Origin: Schlesneria paludicola DSM 18645
GTDB lineage: Bacteria > Planctomycetota > Planctomycetia > Planctomycetales > Planctomycetaceae
Assembly (NCBI GenBank): GCA_945876035.1
Contig: CAMCMU010000028.1
Span: 1-63,323, forward strand
DNA length: 63,323 nt
Direction of reading: 5' to 3'
Positions within the stretch are counted from its first letter, which is position 1. Every line of letters begins with the position of its first letter. This document shows positions 3,919 through 50,862 of this stretch, in pieces. The notes below the pieces were generated by a model. That model was not told the origin of the DNA, searched no databases, and was given only the letters and a program-made list of their open reading frames with translations. Made by a program: the position numbers and the translations under genes.

Positions 3919-4866
3919 TCAGGCAGGCAAGTTCGTTCCCCCCAGAGCGAGTTGTGCTCCCTGAAGAAGAAGTCTCTGAGCCACTTGTTGACCGAGAAAT
4001 TTCGCATCACACGTCAGTCCTGAAGCGGAAGCCATCCAACGTTTCGACCCGTCGATTGTGAGGACAACGGCCTCCACGTAAAGCCTGTCATGGACGACCT
4101 GTGTGAAGGCACCGAGTGGCGCGTGGCAGCCTGCTCGAAGTGTGGACAGCAGACTTCGTTCGGCGACGACCGCCGCCAGAGTTTCCGGGTCTGTAATGCG
4201 TGTCAGGAGTGTCCGCGCAAGCTCATCTTGGATCCGGCACTCCACGCCGATTGCTCCCTGACCAACGGCAGGATAAAGCACGGGAGGGCCCATGCTGCAG
4301 GAGATCCGGTTCCCCAATCCGAGGCGTGTGAGTCCTGCGGCGGCCAGCAGTAATGCGTCAAATTGGCCTTCGTCCAGTTTGTGAAGACGCGTTTCAACAT
4401 TTCCACGTACTTCAAGGAGTTTCAGGTCAGGTCGGAGGTGTTTTAATTGAGCCTGCCGTCGTGGGCTTCCTGTTCCTACTCTTGCCCCTTGGGGTAACTG
4501 TGACCAATTGTTGGCGTCGGGATTGTGAATCGGCATGACGAGCGCATCGACTGAAGGACCTCGCGTCGGTGTGGCGGCGAGGGTTAATCCTTCCACCGGT
4601 TCCGTCGGTAGATCCTTCAAGCTGTGCACCGCCAAATCGGCTCGACCATCGAGGAGCGCCACCTGCACTTCTCGCGTAAAAACGCCCAATCCTCCTAAAT
4701 CCTGCAAACGTTCCGACTGATCGCGGTCGCCGGACGTGCTGACGTAAATCAGTTCGACATTCATTTCCGGTCGGACGGCGCGGATCAAATCGGAAATGTG
4801 GCGGGCCTGCCACAGAGCCAGATTACTTGATCGGGTGGCAATGCGGATTGTCGTCGTGGAAGTCAC
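3919..4866 (-). CDS. hemC: hydroxymethylbilane synthase (porphobilinogen deaminase)
   Basis: Cytoplasmic enzyme that joins four porphobilinogen units into hydroxymethylbilane for heme and related tetrapyrroles. The 315-residue length is normal for the family. Visible signatures are the N-terminal IATRSSNLALWQA, the catalytic Asp in HSLKDLP (Asp85), GTGSPRRQAQL, the loop around VGQGAIGVEC, and the cofactor-binding Cys in LRAGCHAPLGAF (Cys247). A GTG start at 4866 is preceded by GGAG ten bases upstream. comF lies 59 bases upstream on the same strand, so the two may be co-transcribed. hemE of the same pathway is 54 kb away in this window. Confidence 0.97.
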   Translation of the reverse strand: MTSTTTIRIATRSSNLALWQARHISDLIRAVRPEMNVELIYVSTSGDRDQSERLQDLGGLGVFTREVQVALLDGRADLAVHSLKDLPTEPVEGLTLAATPTRGPSVDALVMPIHNPDANNWSQLPQGARVGTGSPRRQAQLKHLRPDLKLLEVRGNVETRLHKLDEGQFDALLLAAAGLTRLGLGNRISCSMGPPVLYPAVGQGAIGVECRIQDELARTLLTRITDPETLAAVVAERSLLSTLRAGCHAPLGAFTQVVHDRLYVEAVVLTIDGSKRWMASASGLTCDAKFLGQQVAQRLLLQGAQLALGGTNLPA

Positions 4867-33921: not shown

Positions 33922-35160
33922 TCACGGGGGGGCAGACATCCGACGTTGTGATTCGTTTGCGTCCAAAGTCTTGTACGCTCCGAAGTCGTTGAACCAATAC
34001 CGCTTTGCCAATCGATACGCCCAACTGCGTTCGGGGATTTCTTGACTGGGGCTGTATTGCGACGGTCGTGACTGCATGGCCATCAGTTCGGCTAAGGCAG
34101 ATTTTCTGGCAGTCTGATCGTCGGCTTTGTGACTGACGACGAGCTGATGCAGCAGGTCCGGACGCTCCAGCACGATGCAACCTCGTGTGGCGGACGCCGC
34201 CACTTGCCGAAAATCCTGCAGAAATTCGGATTGGCCGATCACATCCTTGATGTGGCGTTTGTCGTAAATCGATTCTTTGGCAAATTGAATAATCGGACAC
34301 GGTTCGATCCCGCCCCAGGGATTGATGTGGTGCGTCAGTCCTGAAGCCGCGGGACACAGTGCTTTTCCTTCACCGTCGTAATAGGCGTCGATGATTCCGA
34401 TCGGTTTACGAACCCGCATCTCCACGACAAATTTTCGAATGCGCAACTGTTGCTCGCGGCTGAGCGACAATTCCGGTTTTGGGTCCGGACCCATCGGGCG
34501 ATAGACGTGATACCATGCGTAGAGCACCCCCATTTCAATCAGTCGGTCGAGCCAGGCTTCTTGAACAAGGTCATCAATATTTGTCTGGCACACGCTGGTA
34601 CAAACACCGGTGAGGATTTTGTGTTTCAGGCAGTTCTGCAATCCTTCCATTGTTTTGGAGAGCACATTCGGACGCCCGCGTCGCTCATCGCTGATGATCT
34701 CTGTTCCTTCAACACTGATGAGCGGTGTGACATTTCCAAGTCGCCTGAGTTCGGCGGCAACCTCAGGCGTGATGAAATGGCCATTCGTGAAGACTTGGAA
34801 ATAGCAATCGGGATGAGCCGCAAAAATTTCCAGCAGTTGCGGATGCATGAAGGGCTCTCCGCCCACGATTCCAAAAAAACTGTTACCAGCCTGTTTGGAT
34901 TCCGTCAGCAGCCGGTTCATGGCGTCCAGATCGATCGTTTGCTGTTTGGCGGAGACATCGACCCAACATCCCTGACACCGTAAGTTGCAGCTGTTAATGA
35001 CGGAAATGTAGATGAAGGGAGGAAAAAACTCTCCCCGCTTCATGCGGCGTTTGAATCGCTCAACCGACAGCATTCCTTTGAATCCGAAGTTGTAGGCCAA
35101 TTTCCATAACAATCGCTTGTCGGTTTCGAGAAGGAGTCGTTTTGCCATACGGAGATACAT
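33922..35160 (-). CDS. radical SAM/SPASM-type protein
   Basis: A 412-residue radical S-adenosylmethionine enzyme. The cluster motif CNLRCQGC (Cys58, 62, 65) is followed by the GGE strand FFGIVGGEPFMHPQLLEI, FQVFTNGHFITPEVA, and a C-terminal region with extra cysteines (ALCPAASG, GGIEPCPIIQ, TRGCIVLERPD) that may hold an auxiliary cluster. It resembles hopanoid-type HpnH radical SAM enzymes in general layout, but the HpnH signature around the cluster is not matched, so the substrate is open. The start at 35160 follows CAGGAAACACACC; the frame continues upstream to 35250. It is divergent from the aminotransferase gene. Confidence 0.82.
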   Translation of the reverse strand: MYLRMAKRLLLETDKRLLWKLAYNFGFKGMLSVERFKRRMKRGEFFPPFIYISVINSCNLRCQGCWVDVSAKQQTIDLDAMNRLLTESKQAGNSFFGIVGGEPFMHPQLLEIFAAHPDCYFQVFTNGHFITPEVAAELRRLGNVTPLISVEGTEIISDERRGRPNVLSKTMEGLQNCLKHKILTGVCTSVCQTNIDDLVQEAWLDRLIEMGVLYAWYHVYRPMGPDPKPELSLSREQQLRIRKFVVEMRVRKPIGIIDAYYDGEGKALCPAASGLTHHINPWGGIEPCPIIQFAKESIYDKRHIKDVIGQSEFLQDFRQVAASATRGCIVLERPDLLHQLVVSHKADDQTARKSALAELMAMQSRPSQYSPSQEIPERSWAYRLAKRYWFNDFGAYKTLDANESQRRMSAPP

Positions 35161-35482
35161 GGTGTGTTTCCTGAATTTATCTGCAATCATTCTTATTCGT
35201 TGGTATCGGAGTCGGACCTGATGTCCTCTGGCCAACATCCGGCCAGTCACGGAGCGAATGAATCGAAATGCTAGCGTGTTTTAAGGGCTTTCATGGGCTG
35301 TAGGAGAACATCGTGAAATGTTTTTGGAGTGATTGTAGCAAGCCGGTAGCCAATCCGTTGTGGCCTGTGGAGCGGTTCCTCGTTTGACGAACGGCATCGT
35401 GCCGTAGCATAGTAGACATCGCTGCCGAGGTGGCATCAACCGACAACGGAACTCCGGTTCTTCTGGCAATCGAACGCGTCTG
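35161..35482. other. intergenic stretch between divergent genes
   Basis: About 320 bases between the radical SAM gene and the aminotransferase gene, which face away from each other. It should hold promoters for both. No clear operator or RNA is visible. Confidence 0.4.
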
Positions 35483-36679
35483 ATGGCAAAGCAACTCCCT
35501 GCGATTCTCGGTGGTAGTCCGGTGAGGCCCACGGGGGTCCCCTGTTGGCCGCAGGAGGATCCCCTCGTCCGCGCGGCACTGCTGAAAATGATCGAGTCAA
35601 GTGATTGGGGGCGCTATCATGGACCCCATATCCCAAAACTCTGTCAACGTCTGGCCGATTATCACCAAGTGGAACACGTTTTGCCATGTTCCAGTGGAAC
35701 CGCAGCCGTGGAGTTGGCTCTGCGAGGCGTGGGTGTCGCCGCAGGTGATGAGGTCATTCTTGCGGGATACGACTTTAAGGCCAACTTTCAAAACATCCTG
35801 CGTTTGCAAGCGACTCCAGTCTTGATTGACATTGATCCGGAATCATGGCAAATGGATGTGACTCGACTCGAAGCGAGTGTTTCGACGCGAACTCGAGCGA
35901 TCCTGATTTCGCATCTTCATGGCGGCGTCGTAGACGCTCCGCTGGCTCGGCAGTGTGCTGATCGTCACGGGATTCCTTTGATCGAAGATGCCTGCCAAAA
36001 TCCGGGCGCGATGCTTCACGGGCGTGTCTCGGGAACGTGGGGAGATGTGGGGGTCTTGAGCTTTGGAGGAAGCAAACTGCTGACCGCAGGTCGAGGTGGT
36101 GCCGTGATCACTGCTCGATCTGACGTGGCAGAACGAATCAAACGCTATATTCACCGCGGAAACGAGGCCTACCCGTTATCAGAGATGCAGGCCGCGATTC
36201 TGGTGCCCCAACTCGAGCAACTCGATGACAAGAATGACTTACGTCGCCACTCGGTCTCTCGGTTGCATGACGGTCTACAAGGTCTTGAAGGTTTGACGCT
36301 GATCCAGATTCCGACAGAATGTGTTAAGCCAACTTATTACAAGGTAGGCTTTCGCTATGCGGCAGAGAAATTCGCGGGTCTTCCTCGCGACCGGTTTGCT
36401 GAATCACTCAGAGCCGAGGGAATCGCGTTTGATGCGGGGTTTCGAGGACTCCACTTGATCCATGGATCGCGACGTTTTCGAGCGGCAGATCCGTTATCCG
36501 AAGTCACATGTGCGGATGCAAAGGTGCTGACATTGCATCACCCAATATTGTTGGAAGAAGGTTCGGCGATCGAAGATGTTATTGTCGCCGTCCACAAGAT
36601 TCGCGAATGGTCAACCGAAATAACGGCACGTCTCGGACCAGCAACGCGGGACGTCGAACAGTCGTTGTCTCGCTTGTAA
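35483..36679 (+). CDS. DegT/DnrJ/EryC1/StrS-family PLP aminotransferase
   Basis: A 398-residue sugar-aminotransferase-type PLP enzyme. Visible landmarks are HVLPCSSGTAAVELALRG (PLP phosphate region), LIEDACQNPGA with the Asp of the cofactor pocket (Asp169), and the Schiff-base Lys in VLSFGGSKLLTAGRGGAV (Lys198). These enzymes usually aminate keto-sugars for glycan or natural-product synthesis. It is the last gene before the terpenoid array (175 bases upstream on the same strand), but a role there is not implied by family. The ATG lacks a strong ribosome binding site. Confidence 0.9.
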   Translation: MAKQLPAILGGSPVRPTGVPCWPQEDPLVRAALLKMIESSDWGRYHGPHIPKLCQRLADYHQVEHVLPCSSGTAAVELALRGVGVAAGDEVILAGYDFKANFQNILRLQATPVLIDIDPESWQMDVTRLEASVSTRTRAILISHLHGGVVDAPLARQCADRHGIPLIEDACQNPGAMLHGRVSGTWGDVGVLSFGGSKLLTAGRGGAVITARSDVAERIKRYIHRGNEAYPLSEMQAAILVPQLEQLDDKNDLRRHSVSRLHDGLQGLEGLTLIQIPTECVKPTYYKVGFRYAAEKFAGLPRDRFAESLRAEGIAFDAGFRGLHLIHGSRRFRAADPLSEVTCADAKVLTLHHPILLEEGSAIEDVIVAVHKIREWSTEITARLGPATRDVEQSLSRL

Positions 36680-36854: not shown

Positions 36855-37334
36855 ATGGCGACCGAAATCGTGAATGCAGCACTTGAAAGGCCTCCACGCG
36901 ACTCTGCGGAAAAAGTCGTTCTCCGATGCCAACTCATTTTTGCTCACGCGTGGATGGTTCGAACGTTTGTGAAACACAGTGACGTCGTCGAAGAATTTCC
37001 TGAGTTGATGCAAATTGTTCGTACCGTCTTTGACACGTCGCGTGCTTTGGAGTCGAAGGTGAAAGATCCGACAGCCTATTTCACGACCCTCCGCAAGAAA
37101 ATCGGCAAACTTCAGGCGGCAGCGGATCAGTTTCGCGCGGATGCTCCCGTCGCATCCGATCACACAAATTTCCGTCTTGCAGTCCTTTCCATGGACGGGT
37201 GTGTCGATGAGTTGAGGCGAATCCTCGACTTATTTCCTCCCCCTCCCCCGGCAGCAATGCCCGCCAACTTTCGACGAAACCCTGGGTCGGTTAATGTAGA
37301 AGCCGTTGGCGATGTCGATTTGACAAAAGATTGA
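36855..37334 (+). CDS. uncharacterised helical protein, first gene of terpenoid array
   Basis: A 159-residue protein of unknown family. The first 110 residues look like a helix bundle (for example LIFAHAWMVRTFVKH and TTLRKKIGKLQAAADQF). A proline run (PPPPPAAMP) and a charged tail follow. AGGAAGG seven bases before the ATG supports the start. It is the first of six same-strand genes with short gaps (66 bases to the GcvH-like gene), so it probably belongs to that operon. Partner protein or adaptor are guesses; no function can be assigned. Confidence 0.7.
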   Translation: MATEIVNAALERPPRDSAEKVVLRCQLIFAHAWMVRTFVKHSDVVEEFPELMQIVRTVFDTSRALESKVKDPTAYFTTLRKKIGKLQAAADQFRADAPVASDHTNFRLAVLSMDGCVDELRRILDLFPPPPPAAMPANFRRNPGSVNVEAVGDVDLTKD

Positions 37335-37399
37335 TTTGGCCGACGGTGTCGTCATTCCATTGGTTCCACTACTCTTTTTTCACAGGGGGTCTGATTGCG

Positions 37400-37852
37400 A
37401 TGTCCGATCCGCTTGTGTTCATGATGGGTAAATTCGAAACGCAAATTCTGACAGATCGCGATTACTTCGAATCGCATGTCTGGGTTCAAACGACGGGTGA
37501 TCTGTCCCGAATTGGATTCACTTCCTACGCCGTTCGGCTGCTCCAAGATGTGTATTTCTTGGATTGGCAAATTGATCCGGAGACCGCGGTTCGTCATAAA
37601 CAGGCCATCGGTGAAATTGAAAGTTCTAAAGCCGTTTCGACACTTTACGCCCCTGCCGACGGTCGTCTTGTCCGTTTCAACGAGGCCTTACAGACCGATC
37701 CGTCTTTGATTAACGTCGACAATTACGAACGCGGCTGGCTATATGAGTTATCGACAACGGCCGTACCGCTCTCCCCTGAGCAATATCTGCAGAAGCTCGA
37801 AGCGGGCTGGGAACAGACCCAGCGGATCTTGAAAAGCCAGTTCAATGAATGA
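37400..37852 (+). CDS. GcvH-like lipoyl-carrier protein
   Basis: About 150 residues with the hammerhead fold of glycine-cleavage H proteins. Landmarks are FESHVWVQTTGDLSRIGFTSYAV, the lipoylation motif GEIESSKAVSTLYAP with the target Lys77, and NVDNYERGWLYEL. H proteins carry an aminomethyl or other group on lipoamide in the cytoplasm. No gcvT, gcvP or lipoyl ligase gene is nearby, so this is probably not the housekeeping H protein. Its position between the unknown helical protein and a ferredoxin, ahead of prenyl genes, suggests redox or acyl carrying for that pathway (inference). A G-rich sequence (AGGGGG) lies before the ATG at 37400. Confidence 0.88.
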   Translation: MSDPLVFMMGKFETQILTDRDYFESHVWVQTTGDLSRIGFTSYAVRLLQDVYFLDWQIDPETAVRHKQAIGEIESSKAVSTLYAPADGRLVRFNEALQTDPSLINVDNYERGWLYELSTTAVPLSPEQYLQKLEAGWEQTQRILKSQFNE

Positions 37853-37947
37853 TATTTTGAAGTTCAACACAGGATTGGCTCGAGTCATCAGTCGCGGACC
37901 GGCAGAGAGACTCATGCTCCGTCCAAAATGTAAGAAAGGGCCGATTC

Positions 37948-39093
37948 GTGGCCGGACGTAGTTTGACCGTCGTCATTTCTCAGGCACCCGGAAAAAACCC
38001 GGTCAAACGGCATCTCGAAGAAGAGATCGCCCTGCGCCTCATGTTATCCGGGACGGCTGAAGTTTCAGTGGTGCCTCATCTTTATGACATGACGTCTGAT
38101 CATACGGGAATGCTGTGGCTGCGTTCCCTGAAGGGAAATCTCGTCGTCTTGGGGTGGCTCTATCCGCGCGCCATGCGGTGGATCCTCGATCGTCACGGCG
38201 TGAAGGGAAAAGTGGGTGAATCAAAACTAAATCTCGCTGAAAATGACGACGACGACGACGAACAACGAACAGGCGAAACATCGGATTCTGTCCCATCGCA
38301 GGGTATTGGATCACTCAACGCACCAAACCGATTGGTGTACGTCATCGATCTCCGCGACAATCCGGATCCGGAAACCTACCTCACTGAAATTGGGCGGATT
38401 GCAGAGACAACATCAGTCCCGCTAGTCCAGCTTACCGGACTGGGAACAAAATCTCTGCTGCCCGTACTGGGGGTGAATTCGCTCACGAATACCGACTCAA
38501 CGGGACACTTGACCGGCCACGGACTACACTTAAACGGGACCTCCAAGAGCTTAAGCATCGACTTGGCGGCATTGACGACGGCGGGGTCCGGCAAGGATGC
38601 GACTGCGTTTCCGACTGCGTTTCCGACGGTGATTGACGGTCTCGATGTCCGTCGTCGATGGTACCCCGTGATTGATTACAGTCGCTGTACGAACTGCATG
38701 GAGTGCATCGATTTTTGCCTCTTTGGTGTCTACGGAGTCGATGGTGTTGACCGAATCTTGGTGGAGCAGCAAGACAACTGCAAGAAAGGCTGTCCGGCCT
38801 GCAGTCGAGTCTGTCCTGTCAACGCGATTTTTTTTCCGGAGCACAAAACTCCAGCGATTGCGGGCGCTGAAGGAGGTCTGGTCGGTGACTTTAAGATTGA
38901 TTTATCCAAATTGTTCGGGGCGCCGTCGCCTCTTGATATGGCAATCCTCGAGCGAGATCACGAACTTGTCGCCGACGGAAGAGCGGCCGTCGGCGCCGCG
39001 GTGGGCATTCCAAAGCGGCAATGTGGGCAACCAGCGAAACCACGCGATGATCTCGACGATCTGATGGACGGCCTCGATTCCCTCGATCTCTGA
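37948..39093 (+). CDS. 2[4Fe-4S] ferredoxin-like protein with large N-terminal domain
   Basis: A 381-residue protein. The first 90 residues form a conserved-looking alpha/beta domain of unknown function. An acidic Asp run and a variable linker (TAFPTAFPT tandem repeat) lead to a ferredoxin domain near residue 245 with CTNCMECIDFC and CKKGCPACSRVCP, eight cysteines fit for two [4Fe-4S] clusters. A charged tail ends it. It probably shuttles electrons in the cytoplasm. The start is a GTG at 37948 with AAAGGG upstream. It lies 95 bases after the GcvH-like gene and 20 before the cyclase-like gene. Confidence 0.85.
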   Translation: MAGRSLTVVISQAPGKNPVKRHLEEEIALRLMLSGTAEVSVVPHLYDMTSDHTGMLWLRSLKGNLVVLGWLYPRAMRWILDRHGVKGKVGESKLNLAENDDDDDEQRTGETSDSVPSQGIGSLNAPNRLVYVIDLRDNPDPETYLTEIGRIAETTSVPLVQLTGLGTKSLLPVLGVNSLTNTDSTGHLTGHGLHLNGTSKSLSIDLAALTTAGSGKDATAFPTAFPTVIDGLDVRRRWYPVIDYSRCTNCMECIDFCLFGVYGVDGVDRILVEQQDNCKKGCPACSRVCPVNAIFFPEHKTPAIAGAEGGLVGDFKIDLSKLFGAPSPLDMAILERDHELVADGRAAVGAAVGIPKRQCGQPAKPRDDLDDLMDGLDSLDL

Positions 39094-39113
39094 AAAGTGG
39101 AGTTGTACAGCGG

Positions 39114-40976
39114 ATGGTTAGTCTCGATCGTGTCCACCGGGGGTACGAAATCGTCGCTCATGCGTTGCTCAACGAAGCCACTCCCGAGGGGGCATGGATC
39201 GGAGAACTCTCGTCGTCACCACTCTCCACCGCCACTGCCATCGCCGCATTGCAGCTTGTCCTGTGTCAAGAACCGGAGCGAGTCTCGGAATTACAGCCGT
39301 TTGTGTTGGGCGGACTTCACTGGCTTGTGGAACACCAAAACCCCGATGGAGGCTGGGGCGATACGGTTCTCAGCAAAAGCAATATTGCCACGTCGATGCT
39401 TGCCTATTCGAGTTTTCATCTGACGCAGACGGTCGCCAGGTTTGATGACCCTGTTCGAAGGGCAAAAATTTATGTCGATCAACACGGTGGGATTGATGCC
39501 ATTCGCCGCCGATACGGCAAGGACCATTCGTTTTCTGTGCCAATTTTGACGCAGTGCGCCCTCGCGGGCTTGATCCCTTGGCACACACTCACACCCTTGC
39601 CTTTTGAACTCGGTTGCCTGCCGCATTGGTTTTATCGTTGGATCCGTCTGCCGGTTGTCAGCTACGCCCTTCCGGCACTCATCGCCATAGGGCAGGTCCG
39701 GCATCACCATGCCCCCTCACGCAATCCGCTGATCCGTTTGATCCGACGAATGGCTGTCATTCCGACTCTTGGCAAACTGGCGAGGATTCAGCCCGAGAGC
39801 GGTGGATTTCTGGAAGCCACGCCCTTGACAAGCTTCGTCACCATGAGCTTGGCCTCAATGGGCCAACCGGATCATCCGGTTGCTCGCCGCGGAATCGAGT
39901 TCTTGAAAGATTCCGTACGGTCTGATGGAAGTTGGCCAATCGACACGAATCTTGCCACGTGGGTCACCACACTCTCGGTCGGTGCATTATTAGCACGGTC
40001 GATTTCAGAACAAAAATCGCGAAGCACGACGGCATGGCTGTTATCACAACAGCACACGATCGTGCATCGATATACTAATGCCGATCCGGGTGGATGGGCT
40101 TGGACAAACCTGTCTGGGGGAGTTCCCGATGCCGATGATACACCGGGTGCCGTCTTGGCGCTGTTGAAGCTTGAACCGATCAATCCCGAGGTCAGACTGG
40201 CGGTTGAAAAAGCGATTGAATGGTTGCTCAACCTGCAAAATAGTGATGGTGGATGGCCCACGTTTTGTCGCGGCTGGGGCGCGCTGCCTTTCGATCGCAG
40301 TGCACCGGATCTCACGGCGCATACTCTGCGTGCCTTTCACCGTTGGTTGAGTGTTAACCACGTTTTCTCTGGCGTATCGTCGGCAAGTTGTCGCAATCGA
40401 AGGCTTAATGTTGGGGCAAAGATGCCTGAGGCCGAGTGGAAGCAGGTTCTGTTGGCGGATCGAGTCCAGCGTGCTGCGGTTCGCGGCTTTCGATTTCTTG
40501 CGAGGACTCAAAGGTCGGATGGGGCTTGGTTACCATTGTGGTTCGGAAATCAATTTGCCAACGATGATGAAAACCCTGTTTACGGAGTCTCTCGCGTCTT
40601 GATGGCCTATCGAGACTGGTTACGGCTGGACGATCCTGTCGCGAGGCGGGGAATTTCGTGGTTGGCATCGGTTCAGAACTGCGATGGAGGATGGGGCGGA
40701 GCGTTGTTGACTCCTTCCTCCTTGGAAGAGACGGCTCTCGCCGTCGAAGCCCTATTGCCTGTCCCAGACTATGAACAGGCGTGTCGACGGGGTCTCGAAT
40801 GGATTTTGGTTCAGGTGGAGTCGGGAAAATTTCGAGAACCGGCCCCGATTGGCCTCTATTTTGCCAAGCTGTGGTATTTTGAGCGGCTTTATCCGATAAT
40901 CTTTACCTCATCCGCGTTGGCTAGATTCCTCGATTTGTTTTCATGCCCCGCAGCGCATGACGTTGACCCCTGCTGA
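39114..40976 (+). CDS. class II terpene-cyclase-like protein (squalene-hopene cyclase family)
   Basis: A 620-residue alpha/alpha-toroid protein with at least five QW-type repeats (QNPDGGWGDT, RSDGSWPIDTN, QNSDGGWPTF, QRSDGAWLPL, QNCDGGWGG). The protonating motif of class II cyclases is present as DADD (Asp339, Asp341, Asp342) in VPDADDTPGAVLALL. This fits protonation-started cyclisation of a polyprene. The N-terminus (WIGELSSSPLSTATAIAAL) departs from typical squalene-hopene cyclases, so substrate and product may differ. It probably works at the membrane like its relatives. It starts 20 bases after the ferredoxin gene and is followed by the prenyl synthase fusion. Confidence 0.88.
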   Translation: MVSLDRVHRGYEIVAHALLNEATPEGAWIGELSSSPLSTATAIAALQLVLCQEPERVSELQPFVLGGLHWLVEHQNPDGGWGDTVLSKSNIATSMLAYSSFHLTQTVARFDDPVRRAKIYVDQHGGIDAIRRRYGKDHSFSVPILTQCALAGLIPWHTLTPLPFELGCLPHWFYRWIRLPVVSYALPALIAIGQVRHHHAPSRNPLIRLIRRMAVIPTLGKLARIQPESGGFLEATPLTSFVTMSLASMGQPDHPVARRGIEFLKDSVRSDGSWPIDTNLATWVTTLSVGALLARSISEQKSRSTTAWLLSQQHTIVHRYTNADPGGWAWTNLSGGVPDADDTPGAVLALLKLEPINPEVRLAVEKAIEWLLNLQNSDGGWPTFCRGWGALPFDRSAPDLTAHTLRAFHRWLSVNHVFSGVSSASCRNRRLNVGAKMPEAEWKQVLLADRVQRAAVRGFRFLARTQRSDGAWLPLWFGNQFANDDENPVYGVSRVLMAYRDWLRLDDPVARRGISWLASVQNCDGGWGGALLTPSSLEETALAVEALLPVPDYEQACRRGLEWILVQVESGKFREPAPIGLYFAKLWYFERLYPIIFTSSALARFLDLFSCPAAHDVDPC

Positions 40977-41049
40977 TACTAGAATAGAACCGTTCCATCA
41001 CACGCTGCCCCCTTTGACGATTTGATTTGGAATTCAGAAAGGCCTTTCG

Positions 41050-42951
41050 ATGATCTCAGCGACTCTCGCGACAAGCAGCGACGACCTGAGGGCTGAACGC
41101 GACGCTGTCGATGTTGGGACAGTCGAGTCACCCGATACCTCCCCGTCCGTCTCTGACTCTGAACGCGGCGACAAACCACGACGAGGTCGAAGTACTTCCC
41201 ACTTGAAACTCGTTCCTGACACACTTGATCTTCGAGACGCAATTCGCGAAGCCGCTGATCGCTACGCCACGCAACTCGACAAAAGTCGCCCGTTCAACAA
41301 AGCCGCTCTGGAAATGCATAGTCGCACGCTGCTAGACCAAATCAGTCAGCCAGAGTGTTATCTTGGTTTTGCGATGGTGCTGATCGGCAACGCATTTTGG
41401 AAGCAACAGTTTTTGGCAATTCCGTTTGAACGCCGACTCCTGCTCCTGCCTCATTGCCTGAAGCACGCCGACGGTTGTCCGGCAGAGTACGATGAGTTTG
41501 GTCTGGATTGCGAGAAATGTGGTGCCTGCTCCATCGCCGACTACAAGGTTCGAGCGGAGCAACTGGGATATAAAGTCCTTGTGGCCGAAGGTTCTCCGGT
41601 CGTTCTTAAGATCATCGTTTCCGGTCACGTTGATGGAATCTTGGGAGTTGCTTGCCTCAACGTCCTTGAAAAAGCAATCGACAAGGTGTTACTCGCAGGG
41701 GTACCGTCATATGCCGTGCCGCTCCACTCTGGTGACTGCAAAAATACGAAACTGGACGAATCGTGGGTTTGGCATTGCTTGGACAAATACGTTCCGCTGG
41801 TGGAGCCCAAGACCTCTGGCTATGTCCCTCTGATGCGTGCGTCCAATGAAATGTTCGAAGCCCAATTAGACGAAATCTTGCCGCTGACGCGTCAGCGCGG
41901 TTCTGCGGGCGATTCCCTACTCGCGGAAACAGAATCGATTGCAAGAAATTGGATGCTTAAGGGAGGCAAGCGACTGCGGCCGTTCATTACTCTGGCCGCG
42001 AATGATGCGGTCACTGGTGCCTCGGGTTTGCAATCGACATCGGCGGGGAGCCTTCCGCAGTTTTCCCTAGAGGTTCGCCGCACCGCGATGGCCATGGAAG
42101 CGTTTCACAAAGCCTCTTTGGTGCATGATGACATTCAAGATAATGACCCCTATCGATATGGAAAAGAGACTCTGCATCGGCAATACGGAATTGGTGCCGC
42201 GATCAACGTTGGCGACTATCTGATCGGCATGGGATATCGATTAATCAGCCAAGGTCGCCGCGAGTTGGGAGCCGAGGCGGCGAGCGATATTCTGGACCGT
42301 CTCGCCAATGCACATTTGAAACTTTGTGAAGGACAGGGAGCCGAATTGCGTTGGACCGGTGCGGATGCCGTGAAGCTCACCTCGCTCGACGCAATCAAGC
42401 TTTATGCGTTGAAGACCTCCCCGGCATTTGAGGCAGCCTTGTATGCGGGTTTGCGAATGGCCGGACCGATGGACGCCTACGAGGCGATGGTTCCGACGTT
42501 CTGCCGTCACATTGGCGTTGGCTTTCAAATTTTGAATGATCTGTTGGATTGGGAGGAAATTGCCCCCAATAAATTGGTCGCTGGGCGTGACGCCGAATTG
42601 GCCAAACCGACACTCTTGCTGGCTCTGGCTTTGGATACGGCCAAGGGAGCCGTTCGCGAGGAACTGGTGGGCCTGATCAATGACCCGTTGACGGCACTGG
42701 ATAGGACCGAACGATTGAAGAGTCTGTACCACAAATTGGGAGTGTTTGAGCGAGCCGGGACGCTCGTCGACAAGTGTCGTAGTCGTGCCGAGGCGGTTGC
42801 TGACGAAGTTCAGCCTGAGGCATTGCGGCAGTTGCTCTATTTCTTGATCGATACGGTTCTCGACCACTCTCCGGCCGCTCCGACGCCATCATCGCAAACA
42901 CCCTTTCCGGGGTTGCTTCCCATCCTTGGCAACACTGTCGGGGCGATGTGA
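41050..42951 (+). CDS. DUF116-polyprenyl diphosphate synthase fusion
   Basis: A 633-residue two-part protein. After a charged N-terminal stretch, a DUF116 domain (about residues 75-255) carries a cysteine cluster: Cys136 and Cys143 in HCLKHADGC, then Cys154, 157 and 160 in DCEKCGAC, suited to metal or iron-sulphur binding. From about residue 275 on it is a trans-type isoprenyl diphosphate synthase with GGKRLRPFI, the first Asp-rich motif DDIQD (360-364) and a second motif reading NDLLD (496-500), where the first Asp is Asn. It should elongate allylic diphosphates with IPP. AAAGG precedes the ATG. The fusion links DUF116 chemistry with prenyl-chain synthesis. Confidence 0.9.
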   Translation: MISATLATSSDDLRAERDAVDVGTVESPDTSPSVSDSERGDKPRRGRSTSHLKLVPDTLDLRDAIREAADRYATQLDKSRPFNKAALEMHSRTLLDQISQPECYLGFAMVLIGNAFWKQQFLAIPFERRLLLLPHCLKHADGCPAEYDEFGLDCEKCGACSIADYKVRAEQLGYKVLVAEGSPVVLKIIVSGHVDGILGVACLNVLEKAIDKVLLAGVPSYAVPLHSGDCKNTKLDESWVWHCLDKYVPLVEPKTSGYVPLMRASNEMFEAQLDEILPLTRQRGSAGDSLLAETESIARNWMLKGGKRLRPFITLAANDAVTGASGLQSTSAGSLPQFSLEVRRTAMAMEAFHKASLVHDDIQDNDPYRYGKETLHRQYGIGAAINVGDYLIGMGYRLISQGRRELGAEAASDILDRLANAHLKLCEGQGAELRWTGADAVKLTSLDAIKLYALKTSPAFEAALYAGLRMAGPMDAYEAMVPTFCRHIGVGFQILNDLLDWEEIAPNKLVAGRDAELAKPTLLLALALDTAKGAVREELVGLINDPLTALDRTERLKSLYHKLGVFERAGTLVDKCRSRAEAVADEVQPEALRQLLYFLIDTVLDHSPAAPTPSSQTPFPGLLPILGNTVGAM

Positions 42952-42958
42952 GACGGTA

Positions 42959-43930
42959 ATGGCGCACCCCTATTTGTTCCGGCTGGATCAGCGAATTTCG
43001 CGAGGATTGGCCCACTGGACCGCAGAGCATCGCGAACGAAATCGATTGTTTTTAATCACGCAACAAAACCCGGATGGTGGATTTGGGGGGCGAGGCCTTC
43101 CGTCGGATGATGTCCACTCTGCATCTGAGGGCCGTGATTCGGATCTGTATTACACGGCATTTGCAGTTCGAGCCTTAACTGCTCTGCGAGCCTTCTCCAC
43201 TGAGGATGCACGGCGAGTCGCTCAATTTTTGGACATGTCACGACATCATCAGGCCAGCGTGATTGATGTCGTCAGTTGGCTCTATGCGGCACTCATGGTT
43301 CAGGCCTCGGCGGGAATCGATCTTTTGGCCGCAGCCGACTCCAATTGGCCGAGCCGTCTGGCGACGATCCTCGAGGCTTTCCGCACGGTTGATGGAGGCT
43401 ATGCCAAAACGCACGAAGGAGCACTGGGGAGCACGTACCATTCATTTTTGGTGACGCTCTGTTACGAGCTGATCGGTCAACCGCTGCCCCACCCTGATCG
43501 GCTGGTCCGTTTCATGCACGACCGACAACGCGACGATGGTGGATTTGTGGAAATCGCTCCGATGAAACGCAGTGGGACGAACCCCACGGCCGCGGCCGTC
43601 GCGGTCCTGACCCTGCATTCGTCGATTGGTAAGAATCTGCGCGAAGATGTGCTCGCCTATCTCCGTGATGTCCGCGGTGACGAAGGTGGCTTTCAGGCAA
43701 ATACACGTATTCCGTTCGCCGATACACTCTCGACATTTACCGGATTCCTCACGGGCCTCGATCTCGACACTCGAGACCTGATCGACTCTGTGAAAGTTGA
43801 ACAGTTCGTGCTTTCGCTGGAGCAACCGGCAGGTGGTTTTCGAGCCGCATCATGGGACCAAGCCGCTGACGTGGAATACACATTTTATGCGTTGGGGACT
43901 TTGGGGCTGCTTTGGAGTGATCGTCACTGA
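42959..43930 (+). CDS. alpha/alpha prenyltransferase-like protein
   Basis: A 323-residue toroid of the prenyltransferase-beta/squalene-oxidase repeat class. Repeats with Gly-Gly-Phe or Gly-Gly-Tyr cores are visible (QQNPDGGFGGRG, TVDGGYAKTHEGALGS, QRDDGGFVE, GDEGGFQAN, QPAGGFRAAS), with a late DVEYTFYALG. It resembles geranylgeranyltransferase beta subunits in shape, with the DxEYT-type His/Asp/Cys zinc site only partly recognisable, so catalysis is uncertain. It begins 7 bases after the DUF116 fusion gene stops, strong evidence for translational linkage. It is the last gene of the array. Confidence 0.82.
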   Translation: MAHPYLFRLDQRISRGLAHWTAEHRERNRLFLITQQNPDGGFGGRGLPSDDVHSASEGRDSDLYYTAFAVRALTALRAFSTEDARRVAQFLDMSRHHQASVIDVVSWLYAALMVQASAGIDLLAAADSNWPSRLATILEAFRTVDGGYAKTHEGALGSTYHSFLVTLCYELIGQPLPHPDRLVRFMHDRQRDDGGFVEIAPMKRSGTNPTAAAVAVLTLHSSIGKNLREDVLAYLRDVRGDEGGFQANTRIPFADTLSTFTGFLTGLDLDTRDLIDSVKVEQFVLSLEQPAGGFRAASWDQAADVEYTFYALGTLGLLWSDRH

Positions 43931-44207: not shown

Positions 44208-44990
44208 TCATTTGCCTGTCAGAGTCGCGGCGGGGACCTTCATCGGCTTGAGGTCATTGGTCCCGCTCTTGACGGTGACTTTATACTTTTTGTCGAGGTA
44301 GCCTGCTTTTTCCTGCCAGACGACAAATTCATGATCCCCAACCGGTAAGTCCTTAATTTCAAACGTGCCGTCTTGGCTTGTCACTGCTGCGTAGGAATGG
44401 TCGAGGATGACCCACCACGCCTGCATCCACGGATGAATATCGCAGCCGATTTTTGCCGGCAACCGCTCACCGATATTCACTGAGGGGACCGAGACTCCGA
44501 TTCGATCGTTGGGTGAGACGATGAAGTTCTCTTGCTTATTCTTCAAGGGATAGGTGTGCGTGTTGTGGGCAATTCCATCGCCGGAGAGAACACGCACCTT
44601 TTGGTCGGTTCGGACTAACAACACGTGGGGCAGAAATCGGCAGCCCTTTTGATCGAACACAACCTCTGGGTGCGTACTTTTGGTAAGATCCGGGTGAACT
44701 TTGCTGGGCTTCTTTTGCAAATAGACCACTACGTTCGCAATCCCCTTTGTTTTCGGATCGACCACCAGCGACTCGTCGGGAACATCTTCCGCGGCACAGA
44801 CGGAGGGATCCTTTGCCGCGGCATCCCCTTTGGTGACGAGCAGCGTCAATGCCTTGGTGTCTCCGTCCGCGATCACTTGACCTTTGATGGAACCCCAGTC
44901 AGCCGCTGCGACAACGACAGACATCACGGAGAGACCACACAACACAGAAGTCACCGCCAACGCCGTCCGCCACAAACAACACGTTTTCAT
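44208..44990 (-). CDS. exported cupredoxin-like protein with carboxypeptidase-regulatory domain
   Basis: A 260-residue secreted protein. The signal peptide ends near VVVAAADW (residue 32). A central cupredoxin-like domain has possible copper ligands in AHNTHTYP and GCDIHPWMQAW (His, Cys, His, Met), and a C-terminal beta-sandwich (DGTFEIKDLPVGDHEFVVWQEKAGYLDKKY) resembles a carboxypeptidase-regulatory domain. Relatives are labelled 'methylamine utilization protein', but their role is not proven. The start at 44990 has GAAGG about eleven bases upstream; the upstream part of the frame is not protein-like. It converges with the terpenoid array. Confidence 0.82.
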   Translation of the reverse strand: MKTCCLWRTALAVTSVLCGLSVMSVVVAAADWGSIKGQVIADGDTKALTLLVTKGDAAAKDPSVCAAEDVPDESLVVDPKTKGIANVVVYLQKKPSKVHPDLTKSTHPEVVFDQKGCRFLPHVLLVRTDQKVRVLSGDGIAHNTHTYPLKNKQENFIVSPNDRIGVSVPSVNIGERLPAKIGCDIHPWMQAWWVILDHSYAAVTSQDGTFEIKDLPVGDHEFVVWQEKAGYLDKKYKVTVKSGTNDLKPMKVPAATLTGK

Positions 44991-45399
44991 GGAATTCGCA
45001 CCTTCACAAAAGTTATCCACCGAGGTCTTCCGATCGGATTTGCAGGAATGTCCGATTCCTGTGACATAGTTCGTTGCATTATGGTCATTGTTTGGCATTC
45101 GACAAGACCACCGGGAAGGTAGCATGGTTGGATCTCGGCTGTTATCCTCCAGCACTCCGGCTGAAAAAACGGAGCGCATCGGGTGTGTTCTTCCAAAAAA
45201 CAGGACTCGTCCGCAAGTTGTGGCGGCGGCTCTTACCGCCAAACAACCAACGCGGATAAACGACGACGCGAGCCTGCCCTGTTCTGGCGCAAGGGGGAAC
45301 ATCGAAACCGCACTCGAATGAAGATCTTCCGCCAGAAATTCATTCGCCTAGTTTTGGCCGGACGAGGTAATTGTCTCCTGAATAGAACCTTTAGAACCT
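44991..45399. other. intergenic stretch between divergent genes
   Basis: About 410 bases between the cupredoxin-like gene and the ABM-domain gene. Several long frames cross it on both strands, but none resembles a known family. No RNA or clear promoter recognised. Confidence 0.4.
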
Positions 45400-45904: not shown

Positions 45905-47578
45905 ATGCTCAATAAATACAGTTCCCGAATCACGCAACCGCGCTCGCAAGGCGCGTCGCAGGCCATGCTCTATGGAACCGGGCTGACACGCGCGGATATG
46001 GACAAGCCTCAAATCGGCATAGCCAGCGTTTGGTACGAAGGGAATACCTGCAACATGCACCTCAATAAACTGGCGGAGAAGGTGAAGGAAGGTGTGACAG
46101 CGGCGGGTCTGGTGGGAATGCGATTCAATACGATCGGCGTGAGCGACGGGATTTCGATGGGAACGGATGGGATGTCGTTTTCATTGCAGTCACGGGATCT
46201 TATCGCCGACAGCATCGAGACCGTGATGTCGGCTCAGTGGTACGACGCCAATATTTCACTTCCCGGCTGCGACAAAAACATGCCGGGCTGCCTGATGGCC
46301 ATGGGGCGTCTTAACCGTCCCTCGTTGATGATCTACGGAGGTACGATCCGCGCGGGTTGTACTCCACGGCACCCGAAGCTGGATATTGTCTCCGCATTTC
46401 AAGCGTATGGGGAATACGTTTCGGGCCACATCAGTGACGAGGAGCGTGAAGAAATTATCGGCTGCAGTATCCCAGGAGCCGGAGCCTGCGGCGGAATGTA
46501 CACGGCCAATACGATGGCATCGGCGATCGAGGCCTTGGGCATGTCGTTACCGTACAGTTCGTCAATCCCGGCCGTCGATCCGCTGAAAGAAGGCGAATGT
46601 TTGGCGGCTGGTCAAGCGATTCGCATTCTGTTGGAGAAGGACATCAAACCACGTGACATCATGACTCGTGCCGCATTTGAAAATGCGATGGTTGTGATCA
46701 TGGCGACGGGAGGTTCGACGAATGCCGTACTGCATCTGATCGCGATGGCCCGGGCTGTGGATGTGCCGCTGACGATCGACGATTTTCAAACCGTCAGTGA
46801 CCGCGTGCCGTACATCGCGGATCTCAAACCGAGTGGCAAGTATGTGATGGAAGATTTGCACCACGTGGGCGGGACGCCGGCGGTGATGAAGTATCTGCTG
46901 GAAAAAGGCTATCTGAACGGGGATTGCCTGACCGTCACAGGTAAGACCATCGGGGAGAACCTTGAAAAATTGAACGGCCTTGCGGACGGGCAACGAATCA
47001 TTCACCCCATCGAAACACCGATTAAGGAATCCGGCCATCTGCGGATCATGCGTGGCAACTTCTGTCCTGATGGAGCGGTGGCAAAAATCACAGGCAAGGA
47101 GGGCCTCGTGTTTACGGGACCGGCGCGAGTTTACGATTCTGAGGAGGCGATGCTCCTCGGGTTCGAACAACATCAGATTCAGAAGGGCGATGTGATTATC
47201 ATCCGTTTCGAGGGCCCAAAGGGTGGTCCCGGGATGCCGGAAATGTTGACTCCAACATCGGTGATCATGGGAGCGGGGCTTGGTGAGTACGTGGCGCTCA
47301 TCACCGACGGCCGATTTTCAGGCGGTTCCCACGGTTTCATCGTGGGCCATATCACGCCGGAGGCTCAAGACGGTGGCCCGATCGCACTCGTTGAAAATGG
47401 CGATAGGATCACGATTGATGCCAATCTCAACCGCATAGATGTCGCGTTGTCATCGGAGGAACTCGCTCGGCGTCGCTCGGGCTGGATCGCGCCAGCCTAC
47501 AAGGCCACACGCGGCACACTTTACAAGTACATTAAAAATGTGAAAACTGCGACTGAAGGTTGCGTCACGGACGAATGA
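45905..47578 (+). CDS. ilvD: dihydroxy-acid dehydratase
   Basis: A 557-residue iron-sulphur enzyme of valine, isoleucine, leucine and pantothenate synthesis, dehydrating 2,3-dihydroxy-acids to 2-keto acids. Family landmarks are [16 protein letters not shown] near residue 37, the cluster cysteine in [58 protein letters not shown] and [16 protein letters not shown]. Length is normal. The upstream ribosome binding site is weak. No ilvB, ilvN or ilvC lies in the window. Confidence 0.97.
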
Positions 47579-47697: not shown

Positions 47698-50600
47698 TCA
47701 GTTTTGAATGCCGGGAAGCGAGCTGAGTTGATTCGCCGAATAACCAGACCGTCCACCGAGTTTCGGCTCGATAGAGAGCATGATTCCTGGATTGTTTTGA
47801 CTGGCGTCGTAGTTGGCTCCGACGTGAAACAGCAGCCATTCGCCAACACGCGTCACGGTCAGGGATTGCCCGCGATTTTGACCTTCGCCGAAATCGAACG
47901 CGGTGCTCATGGTGGAGACCCATTTGGGGCTCATCGTATAACCATAACTTGCGGTGACGATCTGACTGTTGATTGAGCCGGTTTTGACCTGTCGCAGTCC
48001 AACGTACATGCTCCCACGCAAACTGCGTTGGCTCTGAACGCCGCAATGCCAGAGTTGTTGGCCATTGTCGAAGAAGTCATATAGACTCCCCGCGATGATG
48101 CTCGTCCGATCTCCGACGTTCCAGACGTAGCGAGAACTGACAAGCCCAATGTCATTGCCAAAGTTGTCGCGATTGGCATCCGGAAAGTATGACAGTCCCA
48201 AGTCCAAGGTCATCCAATCTTTCAACCTCTGGCGTTCGGGAGGGCCCACCTTGGTTTGCAATCGTTGCCTCATTCCGAGACGCAAGACCTGCTGATTGTC
48301 GACCAGTTCGTGGTAGGGCGATGTCACGTTCGAACCGGCTCCAGTGCGAACGGCGTAAAATCGGGGGTCGAGTTGGTTTGGCAGAGTTCCTGAAAACTCT
48401 GTAGTCACCATTCGCTCACGAAACCGTTCTTGAGCGTCATCGTCGAACTCGTTCCACTGCGCGATTTCGGAGAGATCACGAGACGATTCTGAGTAGCTGT
48501 AATCGGCATCGAGCACAACTTTGTGAGTCAGGCCGCTGAGATTGAAGATGTCGCTTTGAACTTGCGGAAATACTCGACCAAATTGGGTGCTGGCGCGAAT
48601 GCCGCCTCGTCCGTAGAAACGGTCAATCGACTGCGCAGTCAAGCCGTCGCTCCAGAAGGCCGCCTCGCCCATCGCATACGGTGCTACTTTGATCGGCCCG
48701 AGGGAGAACGGCATTTCCACCTCGTGCCGCGACATGGCCACGAGACCACTAGCGTCCGTGTAATAAGACAACGGAGTGAATGCGTCATTAGGATTCGTAG
48801 GCGCGTCAGCCTGATGCAATGATGCGAATGCCGCTGATGTGTGGGAACTCCAATTCAACAGACCCCCGAGCAGAGGTTCTCCGAGCGAATACAAGTCGCC
48901 ACGCGGCAGCCACGCGGTATTGTTCTCGAATTCATTGATGGTTGACCGAGCGAGCAGAGATCCCTGCCAGTTTTCATCGAACACTTGTCGCGCATTGACC
49001 AGTGTTTCAAGATCCATGTCAGAGTCAAACTCTCGGCGGCGATACTGCTCGCGAAAGTTCCGGTCGCTTGCAATTCCAACTTCCGCATCCAGAGTCAAGT
49101 TGGACTGCTCGAAAAAATGTCTGTGTTGCCCTTGAAGAATGCCACGATTGGTGGTCTCCGGAGCCAACGCTCGGCGATCACTCCCCAGATTGTCATCGCC
49201 GGAATCGTTGATGTAATAGGCGAGGCCGGTTCCCCCGAAAATATTGCCGAAAGCGTCAATTCCTCCATATTTGCCATCGGTCCCTATCGCGGGTCCCCGT
49301 TGACTCAAGTAGTCGCCCGACAAGGCCCAATTTGCGTCAAGACCTTCGGGCCGCTGAAGTCCGAAGAGTTGAAAGGCATCCCAACGGGTCCGTAGTTTCG
49401 CTCCGAAGATTCGATCGTCTCCTCCGTCAACGCCGATGAGTGGAATGCTGTAATCGTCAGCCAGAAAACTCAGCTTTGGCAAATAGAATAAAGGAACGTC
49501 ACCAACGACAAGCTGGGAGTTCAGTACGGTGATCCGCGTTTGTTCATCGCCCGCAAGTTGACCCGTTTGTGGGTCCATGAGTGAGGTCGGACTGTGCGTC
49601 GGACGAGACTCCAAAAAAATATCACTGGCTTGGACGCGATAACCAGGCTTACCGTAGTTACTCGTCGTGAACCAAGCATTTTGTGCATGATACGATTGTG
49701 TCGAATTCTGACGCAATCGCTCCGCACGAATTCGAACTGCGGCATCCAATTTTGGAACATAGGACTGAAGTTCGGCGTCGAGGATGAGTGCGCGATTCTC
49801 TCGGCCATCGTAAAATGCACGCTCAGCCGTCACTTTATTGCGAACTTCTTGGCCACCAAATTGTGTCAATTGCAGCTGCTGGCGAACGACGATGTTTCCT
49901 TCGAGGTACATCTGAAGTTTACTGTCTGGCCGCTGCAGCGTTTCCTGAGAGAACTGTTCATTGTCGGTGGCATCGGTCCAAATCACGGCTCGATCGGCAC
50001 TGAGGTCGATTGCCCCTATTCCTTCTTCACCTCCAATGACAATCCCGTCCACGAGAACATTCACTCCTCCGGTGATGATCGTTACCATTTCCCGAGGAGT
50101 CGAGTTGTCGGAGATGGAACTTTGGATATTGAAAGGCATGGCAAAACTGCGGGGCGAGACTCGGACTCGCCTCAAGCCGCTCGTTTGTTGCAGAGTCAGA
50201 ACGCTCTCGGGGGGGGTGGAGGCTTGAGGAGTTGCCACCGTCATCTGAGTCTGCCGCAGTCCAACTCGCTCAGATCCTTCTCGCCGATGGATGGCACGTT
50301 GAAACATCGGATCATCTTGACCGGAATGATCTGCAATCCTGCCCCGCACAGACAATGCCACTCCGGCGGACGTATTTAACTCAAGCCACATTGAATTTTC
50401 GGTGCGTGTGCCATTGAGTTCCTGAACCTCAACGGAATCCTCGAGATAGACGGTTAGTCGTTGGCGGGAATCTTCGGCGGACATTGGCTTTCGGACCCAG
50501 ACGACCATGTTGTTCGCGACGAACGTCCGGTCTCCATGAACGAGACGACACGTCCCGCGAAAGAGGGCAATCGTTGTGTTCTGCTCCTGCCACTCTTGAC

Positions 50601-50862
50601 ACCAGTCGGCAGAGATCTGAATCGGCGCCGAAGTCGAAAACGGAACAGACTCATCGGCTGAAACGAAGAGGCATAGACGCATCGCCACACCCACGACCGC
50701 AATCGCTGCGACGCAGAAAGGCATGAACCAGCCAATACGCAACGGGTGTTTGTTGCCCGCCACCGATGCTCCCAAGTGATTGGTTGCTTCAAACAACAAA
50801 GCTCGAAAGTTGCTTCCGTGACGAATAACTTTGCGAAACTGAATTGAACGAAGAAAAATCAA
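47698..50862 (-). CDS. LptD/OstA-like outer-membrane protein
   Basis: A 1054-residue protein whose C-terminal two-thirds is a large beta-barrel rich in Asp, Tyr and Asn, and whose N-terminal part has an OstA-type jellyroll (about residues 70-330). Relevant stretches are LFRGTCRLVHGDRTFVANNMVVW and DGRENRALILDAELQ. LptD inserts lipopolysaccharide into the outer membrane; this would support a Gram-negative-type envelope. A membrane helix near residue 45-65 acts as signal anchor. The start is uncertain (TTG at 50862 with a weak site, or ATG at 50724). No lptA or lptB gene is nearby. Its long N-terminal insertions are unlike model LptD proteins. Confidence 0.75.
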   Translation of the reverse strand: MIFLRSIQFRKVIRHGSNFRALLFEATNHLGASVAGNKHPLRIGWFMPFCVAAIAVVGVAMRLCLFVSADESVPFSTSAPIQISADWCQEWQEQNTTIALFRGTCRLVHGDRTFVANNMVVWVRKPMSAEDSRQRLTVYLEDSVEVQELNGTRTENSMWLELNTSAGVALSVRGRIADHSGQDDPMFQRAIHRREGSERVGLRQTQMTVATPQASTPPESVLTLQQTSGLRRVRVSPRSFAMPFNIQSSISDNSTPREMVTIITGGVNVLVDGIVIGGEEGIGAIDLSADRAVIWTDATDNEQFSQETLQRPDSKLQMYLEGNIVVRQQLQLTQFGGQEVRNKVTAERAFYDGRENRALILDAELQSYVPKLDAAVRIRAERLRQNSTQSYHAQNAWFTTSNYGKPGYRVQASDIFLESRPTHSPTSLMDPQTGQLAGDEQTRITVLNSQLVVGDVPLFYLPKLSFLADDYSIPLIGVDGGDDRIFGAKLRTRWDAFQLFGLQRPEGLDANWALSGDYLSQRGPAIGTDGKYGGIDAFGNIFGGTGLAYYINDSGDDNLGSDRRALAPETTNRGILQGQHRHFFEQSNLTLDAEVGIASDRNFREQYRRREFDSDMDLETLVNARQVFDENWQGSLLARSTINEFENNTAWLPRGDLYSLGEPLLGGLLNWSSHTSAAFASLHQADAPTNPNDAFTPLSYYTDASGLVAMSRHEVEMPFSLGPIKVAPYAMGEAAFWSDGLTAQSIDRFYGRGGIRASTQFGRVFPQVQSDIFNLSGLTHKVVLDADYSYSESSRDLSEIAQWNEFDDDAQERFRERMVTTEFSGTLPNQLDPRFYAVRTGAGSNVTSPYHELVDNQQVLRLGMRQRLQTKVGPPERQRLKDWMTLDLGLSYFPDANRDNFGNDIGLVSSRYVWNVGDRTSIIAGSLYDFFDNGQQLWHCGVQSQRSLRGSMYVGLRQVKTGSINSQIVTASYGYTMSPKWVSTMSTAFDFGEGQNRGQSLTVTRVGEWLLFHVGANYDASQNNPGIMLSIEPKLGGRSGYSANQLSSLPGIQN

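Follow-up and report, generated by a model that had tools for sequence, protein, structure and literature searches.

The window analysed here, the whole 63,323-nucleotide stretch at positions 1 to 63,323 of contig CAMCMU010000028.1 from Schlesneria paludicola DSM 18645 (a draft genome of 4.7 Mb, 97% complete, in 102 contigs), carries a gene cluster whose conserved unit is a five-gene core: a ferredoxin-like protein (g3), a radical SAM enzyme, a fusion of DUF116 with a polyprenyl diphosphate synthase (g5), a protein-prenyltransferase-like toroid (g6) and a class II terpene cyclase-like protein (g4). This core probably encodes a dedicated terpenoid pathway, in which a polyprenyl chain would be cyclised and then modified by the radical SAM enzyme with an iron-sulfur (Fe-S) electron supply. 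Protein families, motifs, co-occurrence, gene order and the exchange of one radical SAM type for another are read from sequence; from these we infer each reaction, the order of the steps and the product.

An earlier note on this DNA had described a plus-strand array of six genes, g1 to g6. All six open reading frames are present without internal stops, and a Pfam scan confirmed the proposed families, namely GCV_H in g2, C-terminal 4Fe-4S domains in g3, SQHop_cyclase N and C domains in g4, DUF116 and polyprenyl_synt in g5, and Prenyltrans in g6; no Pfam match was obtained for g1. Four of the gaps between the genes (95, 20, 73 and 7 bases) are as given there, and the first measures 65 bases instead of 66. 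Among the core genes, g3 (37948..39093, plus strand, GTG start) encodes an N-terminal alpha/beta domain and two 4Fe-4S motifs, g4 (39114..40976, plus strand) a class II (DxDD) squalene-hopene-cyclase-like protein, g5 (41050..42951, plus strand) the fusion (DUF116, 7.8e-38; polyprenyl_synt, 2.9e-39) and g6 (42959..43930, plus strand) a protein-prenyltransferase-beta-like toroid (Prenyltrans, 1.2e-19). The fifth member of the conserved set lies outside the interval of the earlier note, which overlooked it: a radical SAM/SPASM-type protein encoded at 33922..35250 on the minus strand, 1.6 kb from g1, with a CxxxCxxC motif and the further invariant cysteines C279, C298 and C338 (numbered from the Met at 35190). 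All NCBIfam matches shown for the six proteins fall below their curated cutoffs, so these proteins are outlying members of their families.

The distribution of the core was surveyed in 392 sampled Planctomycetota genomes, searched with the fusion, the radical SAM protein, g3 and g6. The g5 query matched 108 genomes at 1e-20, of which 97 were counted as carrying the fusion from the match coordinates and 11, matching only as a prenyl synthase, were left out; in two of the 97 (our genomes G098 and G277) the fusion was seen in its synthase half alone, at about 41 to 46% identity. The SPASM-type radical SAM ortholog was found in 85 genomes, all at 470 bits or more, a count that leaves out five genomes at 242 to 261 bits, beyond a clear score gap. 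Matches to g3 and g6 were present in 95 and 91 genomes, respectively. All four families occur together in 80 genomes, at least three in 92, any of them in 99, some but not all in 19 and none in 293, and the fusion is accompanied by g3 in 93 genomes, by the radical SAM protein in 84 and by g6 in 90. Of the window's family, 27 further members were sampled: the fusion is present in all 27, the radical SAM protein and g6 in 26 each, and g3 in 25; in the same class outside this family, 11 of 12 sampled members have the fusion.

Gene neighbourhoods were then compared within and beyond the phylum. Sixty of them, mostly 20 kb long and some clipped by contig ends, served as the basis for profiles of the window genes, and a relative of the radical SAM gene at 33922-35250 recurs in 34 of the 61 loci formed by these neighbourhoods and the window. 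A cross-phylum scan with the g3 profile against one genome per species added the best 80 of 566 confirmed stretches. The resulting 141 loci include 96 core loci, defined as those in which three or more core types are found, the fusion or its DUF116 portion among them; at least three pairs of these carry identical fusions. Among the core loci, g3 is present in 91, g4 in 86, g6 in 79, g2 in 41 and g1 in 4. The unit drawn by the earlier note thus stands for g3 to g6, which are conserved jointly in relatives, and fails for g1; six genes as a conserved unit were rejected. For g3, g5 and g6, phylum-wide co-occurrence gives good support to the terpenoid pathway with its own electron carriers that the note suggested, and for g4 the presence in the core loci does so; a dedicated acyl or redox carrier, the role proposed for the lipoyl protein g2, is a lineage-specific addition. 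Other genes in the core loci encode a CobW GTPase (30 loci), a cysteine desulfurase (13), a GT4 glycosyltransferase (13) and a chorismate-lyase-like protein (6). The order g3-radical SAM-fusion-g6-g4 is seen in 35 core loci and g3-B12-type radical SAM-g4-fusion-g6 in 13, non-planctomycete phyla included.

Outside Planctomycetota, the core was found in Bacteroidota, for example in the named strains Sunxiuqinia indica (L147) and Mangrovibacterium lignilyticum (L153), in Armatimonadota including Zipacnadia (L097, L102, L105, L114, L122, L123 and L124), in Verrucomicrobiota (L104, L107, L158 and L160), Kiritimatiellota (L120), Lentisphaerota (L169) and Spirochaetota (L164); most of these, the named strains excepted, are metagenome-assembled genomes (MAGs), in which contigs are possibly misassigned. 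In a Firestonebacteria locus (L112) the core is seen, and the contig stops just behind g3, so that the radical SAM gene is not visible. A wide spread in Bacteroidota was considered and rejected: a search with the Sunxiuqinia fusion at 1e-40 found the fusion in one of 247 sampled genomes, the search's own centre, and the cluster is rare there. Two loci, L034 (genome G105) and L048 (G087), hold a fusion of DUF116 with a polyprenyl synthase that has diverged from g5 (about 48% identity) and stands without other core genes; it is a second copy in G105 and the sole copy in G087.

The radical SAM slot of the cluster is filled by two types of enzyme. The SPASM-type protein, in its window copy, and a second, probable B12-type protein each have the CxxxCxxC motif and a Radical_SAM domain, which place both in the radical SAM superfamily. 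Across the core loci, 60 have the SPASM type, 24 the B12 type, 12 neither and none both. In a set of hand-chosen genomes, the B12 type was present in 10 of 14 cluster genomes lacking the SPASM type, in none of 24 SPASM-positive genomes and in none of eight without the cluster. The remaining four cluster genomes have neither type: G028, which has the fusion alone without g3 or g6; G036 and G075, which are 69 and 79% complete; and G087, which carries only the diverged fusion paralog. The B12-type gene stands directly before the fusion in L065, L079, L084 (where g3 is on a different contig) and L088, and before g4 and the fusion in L063, taking the position held elsewhere by the SPASM gene. On a tree of 81 fusions, built by a quick method with support from the Shimodaira-Hasegawa-like approximate likelihood ratio test (SH-aLRT) only and containing two long-branch rows, the radical SAM label requires seven changes, at least five of them forced by well supported branches, against a mean of 20.2 for shuffled labels; for instance, L065 with the B12 type is sister to L067 with the SPASM type with full support. 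That one type has displaced the other repeatedly in a single slot argues that both would carry out the same step. On the same tree an Akkermansiaceae MAG falls within Bacteroidota, which suggests that the cluster has moved between phyla.

The fusion g5 retains the sequence motifs expected of a prenyl synthase. The two aspartate-rich motifs typical of trans-polyprenyl diphosphate synthases are kept in its family, the first being intact in 105 of 106 fusions and the second in 99 (duplicates included). In the g5 family the residues just ahead of the first aspartate motif are small (HKASL.HDD), which by the chain-length rule agrees with a product of at least C20. In NCBIfam, the synthase half comes closest to the Family 2 encapsulin cargo polyprenyl transferase (NF041169), at 123 bits, far below the cutoff of 450. 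Each of seven cysteines of DUF116 is conserved in 101 to 103 of the 106 fusions, and a cysteine-rich domain is common to g5 and the archaeal DUF116 proteins (COG1852/arCOG02078). Section 3.6 of PMC5898192 noted the DUF116-polyprenyl synthetase fusion in Pirellula staleyi (Psta_0175) and proposed an electron transfer role for DUF116; the account given there makes no mention of a cyclase, a ferredoxin, a radical SAM protein or a conserved cluster. The predicted DUF116 model (mean predicted local distance difference test score, pLDDT, 88) had no match below E 0.06 among structures in the PDB, and a DUF116 profile found no relative at E 10 among PDB sequences. These model and profile searches neither support nor exclude the flavodoxin-like fold proposed in that section.

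The cyclase g4 has the DxDD motif of class II terpene cyclases on a SQHop-type toroid; the motif is kept in 47 of 49 aligned sequences, with one broken and one gapped. Its closest solved relatives are squalene-hopene cyclases (SHCs; 2.3e-23), yet its score against the curated SHC model TIGR01507 is 116 bits, where the cutoff is 431, and against the SHC N-domain it scores 59 bits versus 359 for the separate SHC of the same genome. For g6, the best solved match of the profile is the beta subunit of Rab geranylgeranyltransferase (RabGGTase). Protein prenyltransferase beta subunits, such as those of RabGGTase and farnesyltransferase (FTase), have an Asp-Cys-His zinc site; g6 shares their toroid profile, and in its alignment, compared by eye with this motif, the Asp is kept while the Cys and His places read Leu and Tyr. 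Thus, g6 appears to have lost zinc ligands. A 4HBT-family thioesterase gene lies directly upstream of g6 at L050:13993-14439 and, by reading, at L051:13201-13647.

The two 4Fe-4S motifs of g3 have invariant cysteines, and a Foldseek search with its model gave E values below 0.001 for the ferredoxin part only, flavodoxin-like proteins (ArsH) being weak matches. Beside g3, in 19 loci among L066-L087 from deep planctomycete families, stands a protein of about 120 residues with an invariant CxC...C...C pattern (17 aligned sequences). Its profile retrieved mainly designed repeat proteins from the PDB and no convincing relative; a kinship with the N-terminal part of HdrA, suspected by eye, was discarded after scans of 17 of these small proteins, which are like the N-terminal domain of g3, against NCBIfam and Pfam brought up no HdrA. 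The accessory gene g2 (37400..37852, plus strand; GCV_H, 3.8e-24) encodes a second, divergent GcvH-like protein. Its lipoyl-lysine motif marks it as a predicted lipoyl carrier, with G71, E74, K77 and A78 invariant in 29 aligned sequences, and lipoylation itself is a prediction. With 78 bits against TIGR00527 (cutoff 115.85), it does not reach the GcvH equivalog level, and a higher-scoring canonical GcvH, 36% identical to g2 over 97 residues, is encoded elsewhere in the source genome. A HemN/HutW-like radical SAM gene lies directly upstream of g2 at L049:1907-3217 and, by reading, at L056:4148-5485. As described in PMC6067878, sHdr-LbpA is a lipoate-dependent sulfur oxidation system, and it shares with the cluster a GcvH-like lipoyl protein outside glycine cleavage, near an Fe-S redox protein. 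It differs in that g2 is optional in the cluster, which has prenyl enzymes instead, and the partner HdrA (NF041778) had no match at 1e-20 in the source genome.

Taken together, these features lead us to propose that the synthase half of g5 would make a polyprenyl diphosphate of all-trans geometry, with a probable length of C20 or more. The class II cyclase g4 would protonate and cyclise this polyprenyl chain, or else one of its derivatives, and would not use squalene, and g6, which appears to lack the zinc site of protein prenyltransferases, would bind the chain or cyclise it further. The radical SAM enzyme, SPASM-type here and probably B12-type in other lineages, would then modify an unactivated carbon of the product. 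The ferredoxin g3 would supply the electrons, probably together with an Fe-S cluster bound by the seven DUF116 cysteines; being fused to the synthase, DUF116 would act on its substrate or product. GcvH-like g2 here, and elsewhere the CobW GTPase and the cysteine desulfurase of other lineages, may have accessory roles in carriage or maturation. The literature searches made brought up no account of the cluster; of the gene set only the fusion is already in print, in the section of PMC5898192 cited above. As a whole, the gene set did not qualify for any of the known pathways against which it was compared, while each enzyme comes from a known superfamily.

Several observations weigh against this proposal. 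No assay of any enzyme of the gene set was found in the literature searches made, and the ligands of g4 and g6 could be other than the polyprenyl chain. The co-occurrence of the families (Fisher p <1e-66) was computed ignoring kinship. The radical SAM gene of the window reads from the strand opposite to g1-g6, so that a single operon there is putative at best. Twelve core loci show neither radical SAM type; in several such genomes a radical SAM gene sits elsewhere, and some contigs end early. The B12 type was assigned through TIGR04013 at 66 bits, below the cutoff of 251, and Pfam gives it a radical SAM domain alone, with no B12 domain at E 0.05, so that its cobalamin binding is putative. Finally, SQS_PSY, the squalene/phytoene synthase family, is found in 31 of 44 chosen cluster genomes, the source genome included, and squalene is excluded only for the other 13, some of them drafts.

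The last point bears on the idea that the cluster is a variant hopanoid or squalene-type pathway with g4 as an ordinary squalene-hopene cyclase. The hopanoid pathway comprises squalene-hopene cyclase, HpnCDE, the radical SAM enzyme HpnH and HpnP/HpnR. It has in common with the cluster a DxDD cyclase of the SHC superfamily and radical SAM tailoring, B12-type enzymes included, and the solved relatives of g4, its preserved DxDD motif and the 31 genomes with SQS_PSY (two such genes in the source genome) are what one would expect of such a variant. However, SQS_PSY was undetected in 13 of the 44 genomes, among them the one-contig G307 (100% complete) and the drafts G057 and G200 (99% complete), and squalene therefore cannot be the general substrate, unless it is made by an unrecognised enzyme. 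A canonical SHC, separate from the cluster and far higher scoring, is present in 20 of the 44, including the source genome, where it is on another contig. With both observations, the cluster is not simply the hopanoid pathway: it has a dedicated fused synthase, a ferredoxin, a second toroid and a g4 distinct from the separate SHC and under the curated cutoffs of the NCBIfam cyclase models it matched, and the window radical SAM protein scores 32 bits against the HpnH model (cutoff 225). We consider this variant, already disfavoured, highly improbable. Modification of a precursor peptide by the SPASM enzyme and the prenyltransferase-like toroid, with a prenyl group as donor, would account for the resemblance of the radical SAM protein to SkfB, among other radical SAM enzymes, and that of g6 to RabGGTase beta; but no conserved small precursor gene stands among the neighbours of at least 90 aa, no alpha-subunit partner was noticed for g6 (none was searched for), its zinc ligands appear replaced by eye, and the SPASM enzyme is exchanged for the other radical SAM type. 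Such a role seems improbable to us. Chance juxtaposition or an artefact of a single MAG, for which nothing spoke, is refuted, and we give it practically no credence: four families occur together in 80 of 392 genomes, core genes lie side by side and point the same way in other loci too, 428 of 439 of them being on the strand of the fusion in the 96 loci, and the core occurs in other phyla, in one-contig genomes and in two named strains.

A more specific and bolder option, compatible with cyclisation and radical SAM modification of a polyprenyl chain, is that a neighbouring periplasmic electron chain, with NapG/NapH-like Fe-S proteins and pyrroloquinoline quinone (PQQ)-like propellers, uses the product as a lipid-soluble redox cofactor or a quinone-like carrier. 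PQQ-like beta-propellers are encoded in 46 of the 96 core loci, NapG-like proteins in 12, NapH-like in 10 and NHL-type in 13, with domains assigned on representatives. In two chosen genomes the propeller matches are centred on the cluster: two of four flank it in G352, and in G399 all six listed of seven matches are on the contig with a g4-type cyclase match. The chorismate-lyase-like protein behind the fusion in six loci, one member of which matches PF01947 at a sub-cutoff E of 0.021, also fits this option, but the match is weak and the protein is limited to these loci. Against it, 50 of the 96 loci show no propeller nearby, among them the window, where no propeller or NapGH homologue was found between 26 and 54 kb, and propeller matches are common in some cluster genomes, ranging from 4 to 45 in 15 chosen genomes (one gene may give more than one match). 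The expectation from these counts is at most about 0.13 matches per 18 kb, which makes the association suggestive, the genomes having been chosen with the finding in view. No prenyl-aryl transferase was noticed among the conserved neighbours, and no search was aimed at one. We regard a redox lipid of this kind as a tentative possibility, on the unlikely side. Still more doubtful is the fullest version of the proposal: a pathway of five enzymes, apparently mobile and present in five bacterial phyla or more, would make a hitherto unrecognised kind of cyclised polyprenyl lipid or cofactor, B12-type and non-B12 radical SAM enzymes would be interchangeable in its key radical step, and the product would serve the periplasmic NapGH-like/PQQ-propeller electron chain.

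Some neighbouring genes were recorded separately. NapG/NapH-like Fe-S proteins and PQQ-like propellers stand beside the core in a Spirochaetes MAG (L164:2-1084 and 3476-4045) and a deep planctomycete (L090:15704-17484). The small conserved protein behind the fusion (L049:10848-11579, L050, L051, L052, L056 and L057) would point to an aromatic head group; its identity as a chorismate lyase was judged too weak, a second member having no Pfam match and the profile's hit to 2nwi (E 0.29) ranking below one to an unrelated chain (E 0.09). In the window, the short protein g1 (36855..37334, plus strand) is lineage-specific, as is a DegT/DnrJ-type aminotransferase gene (35483..36679, plus strand), a local feature that adjoins g1 only in L032, L033, L035 and the window. 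Downstream of g6, three genes look unrelated to the cluster. The first (44208-45302, minus strand) encodes a protein whose carboxypeptidase-regulatory-like match is weak; the other two, judged from reading alone, encode a probable dihydroxy-acid dehydratase (45905-47578, plus strand) and a long beta-rich outer-membrane-type protein (47698-50862, minus strand).

The fusion, the radical SAM protein, g3 and g6 are near-universal among the sampled members of the window's family, yet the gene set lies outside the known pathways considered. If the proposed terpenoid pathway is correct, planctomycetes and several other phyla make a terpenoid that has gone unseen, and DUF116 gains a function. One cluster genome, G321, which carries the fusion, the radical SAM gene, g3 and g6, appears to belong to a tractable model, and the recurrent exchange between the two radical SAM types would provide a natural experiment on the replacement of one by the other.

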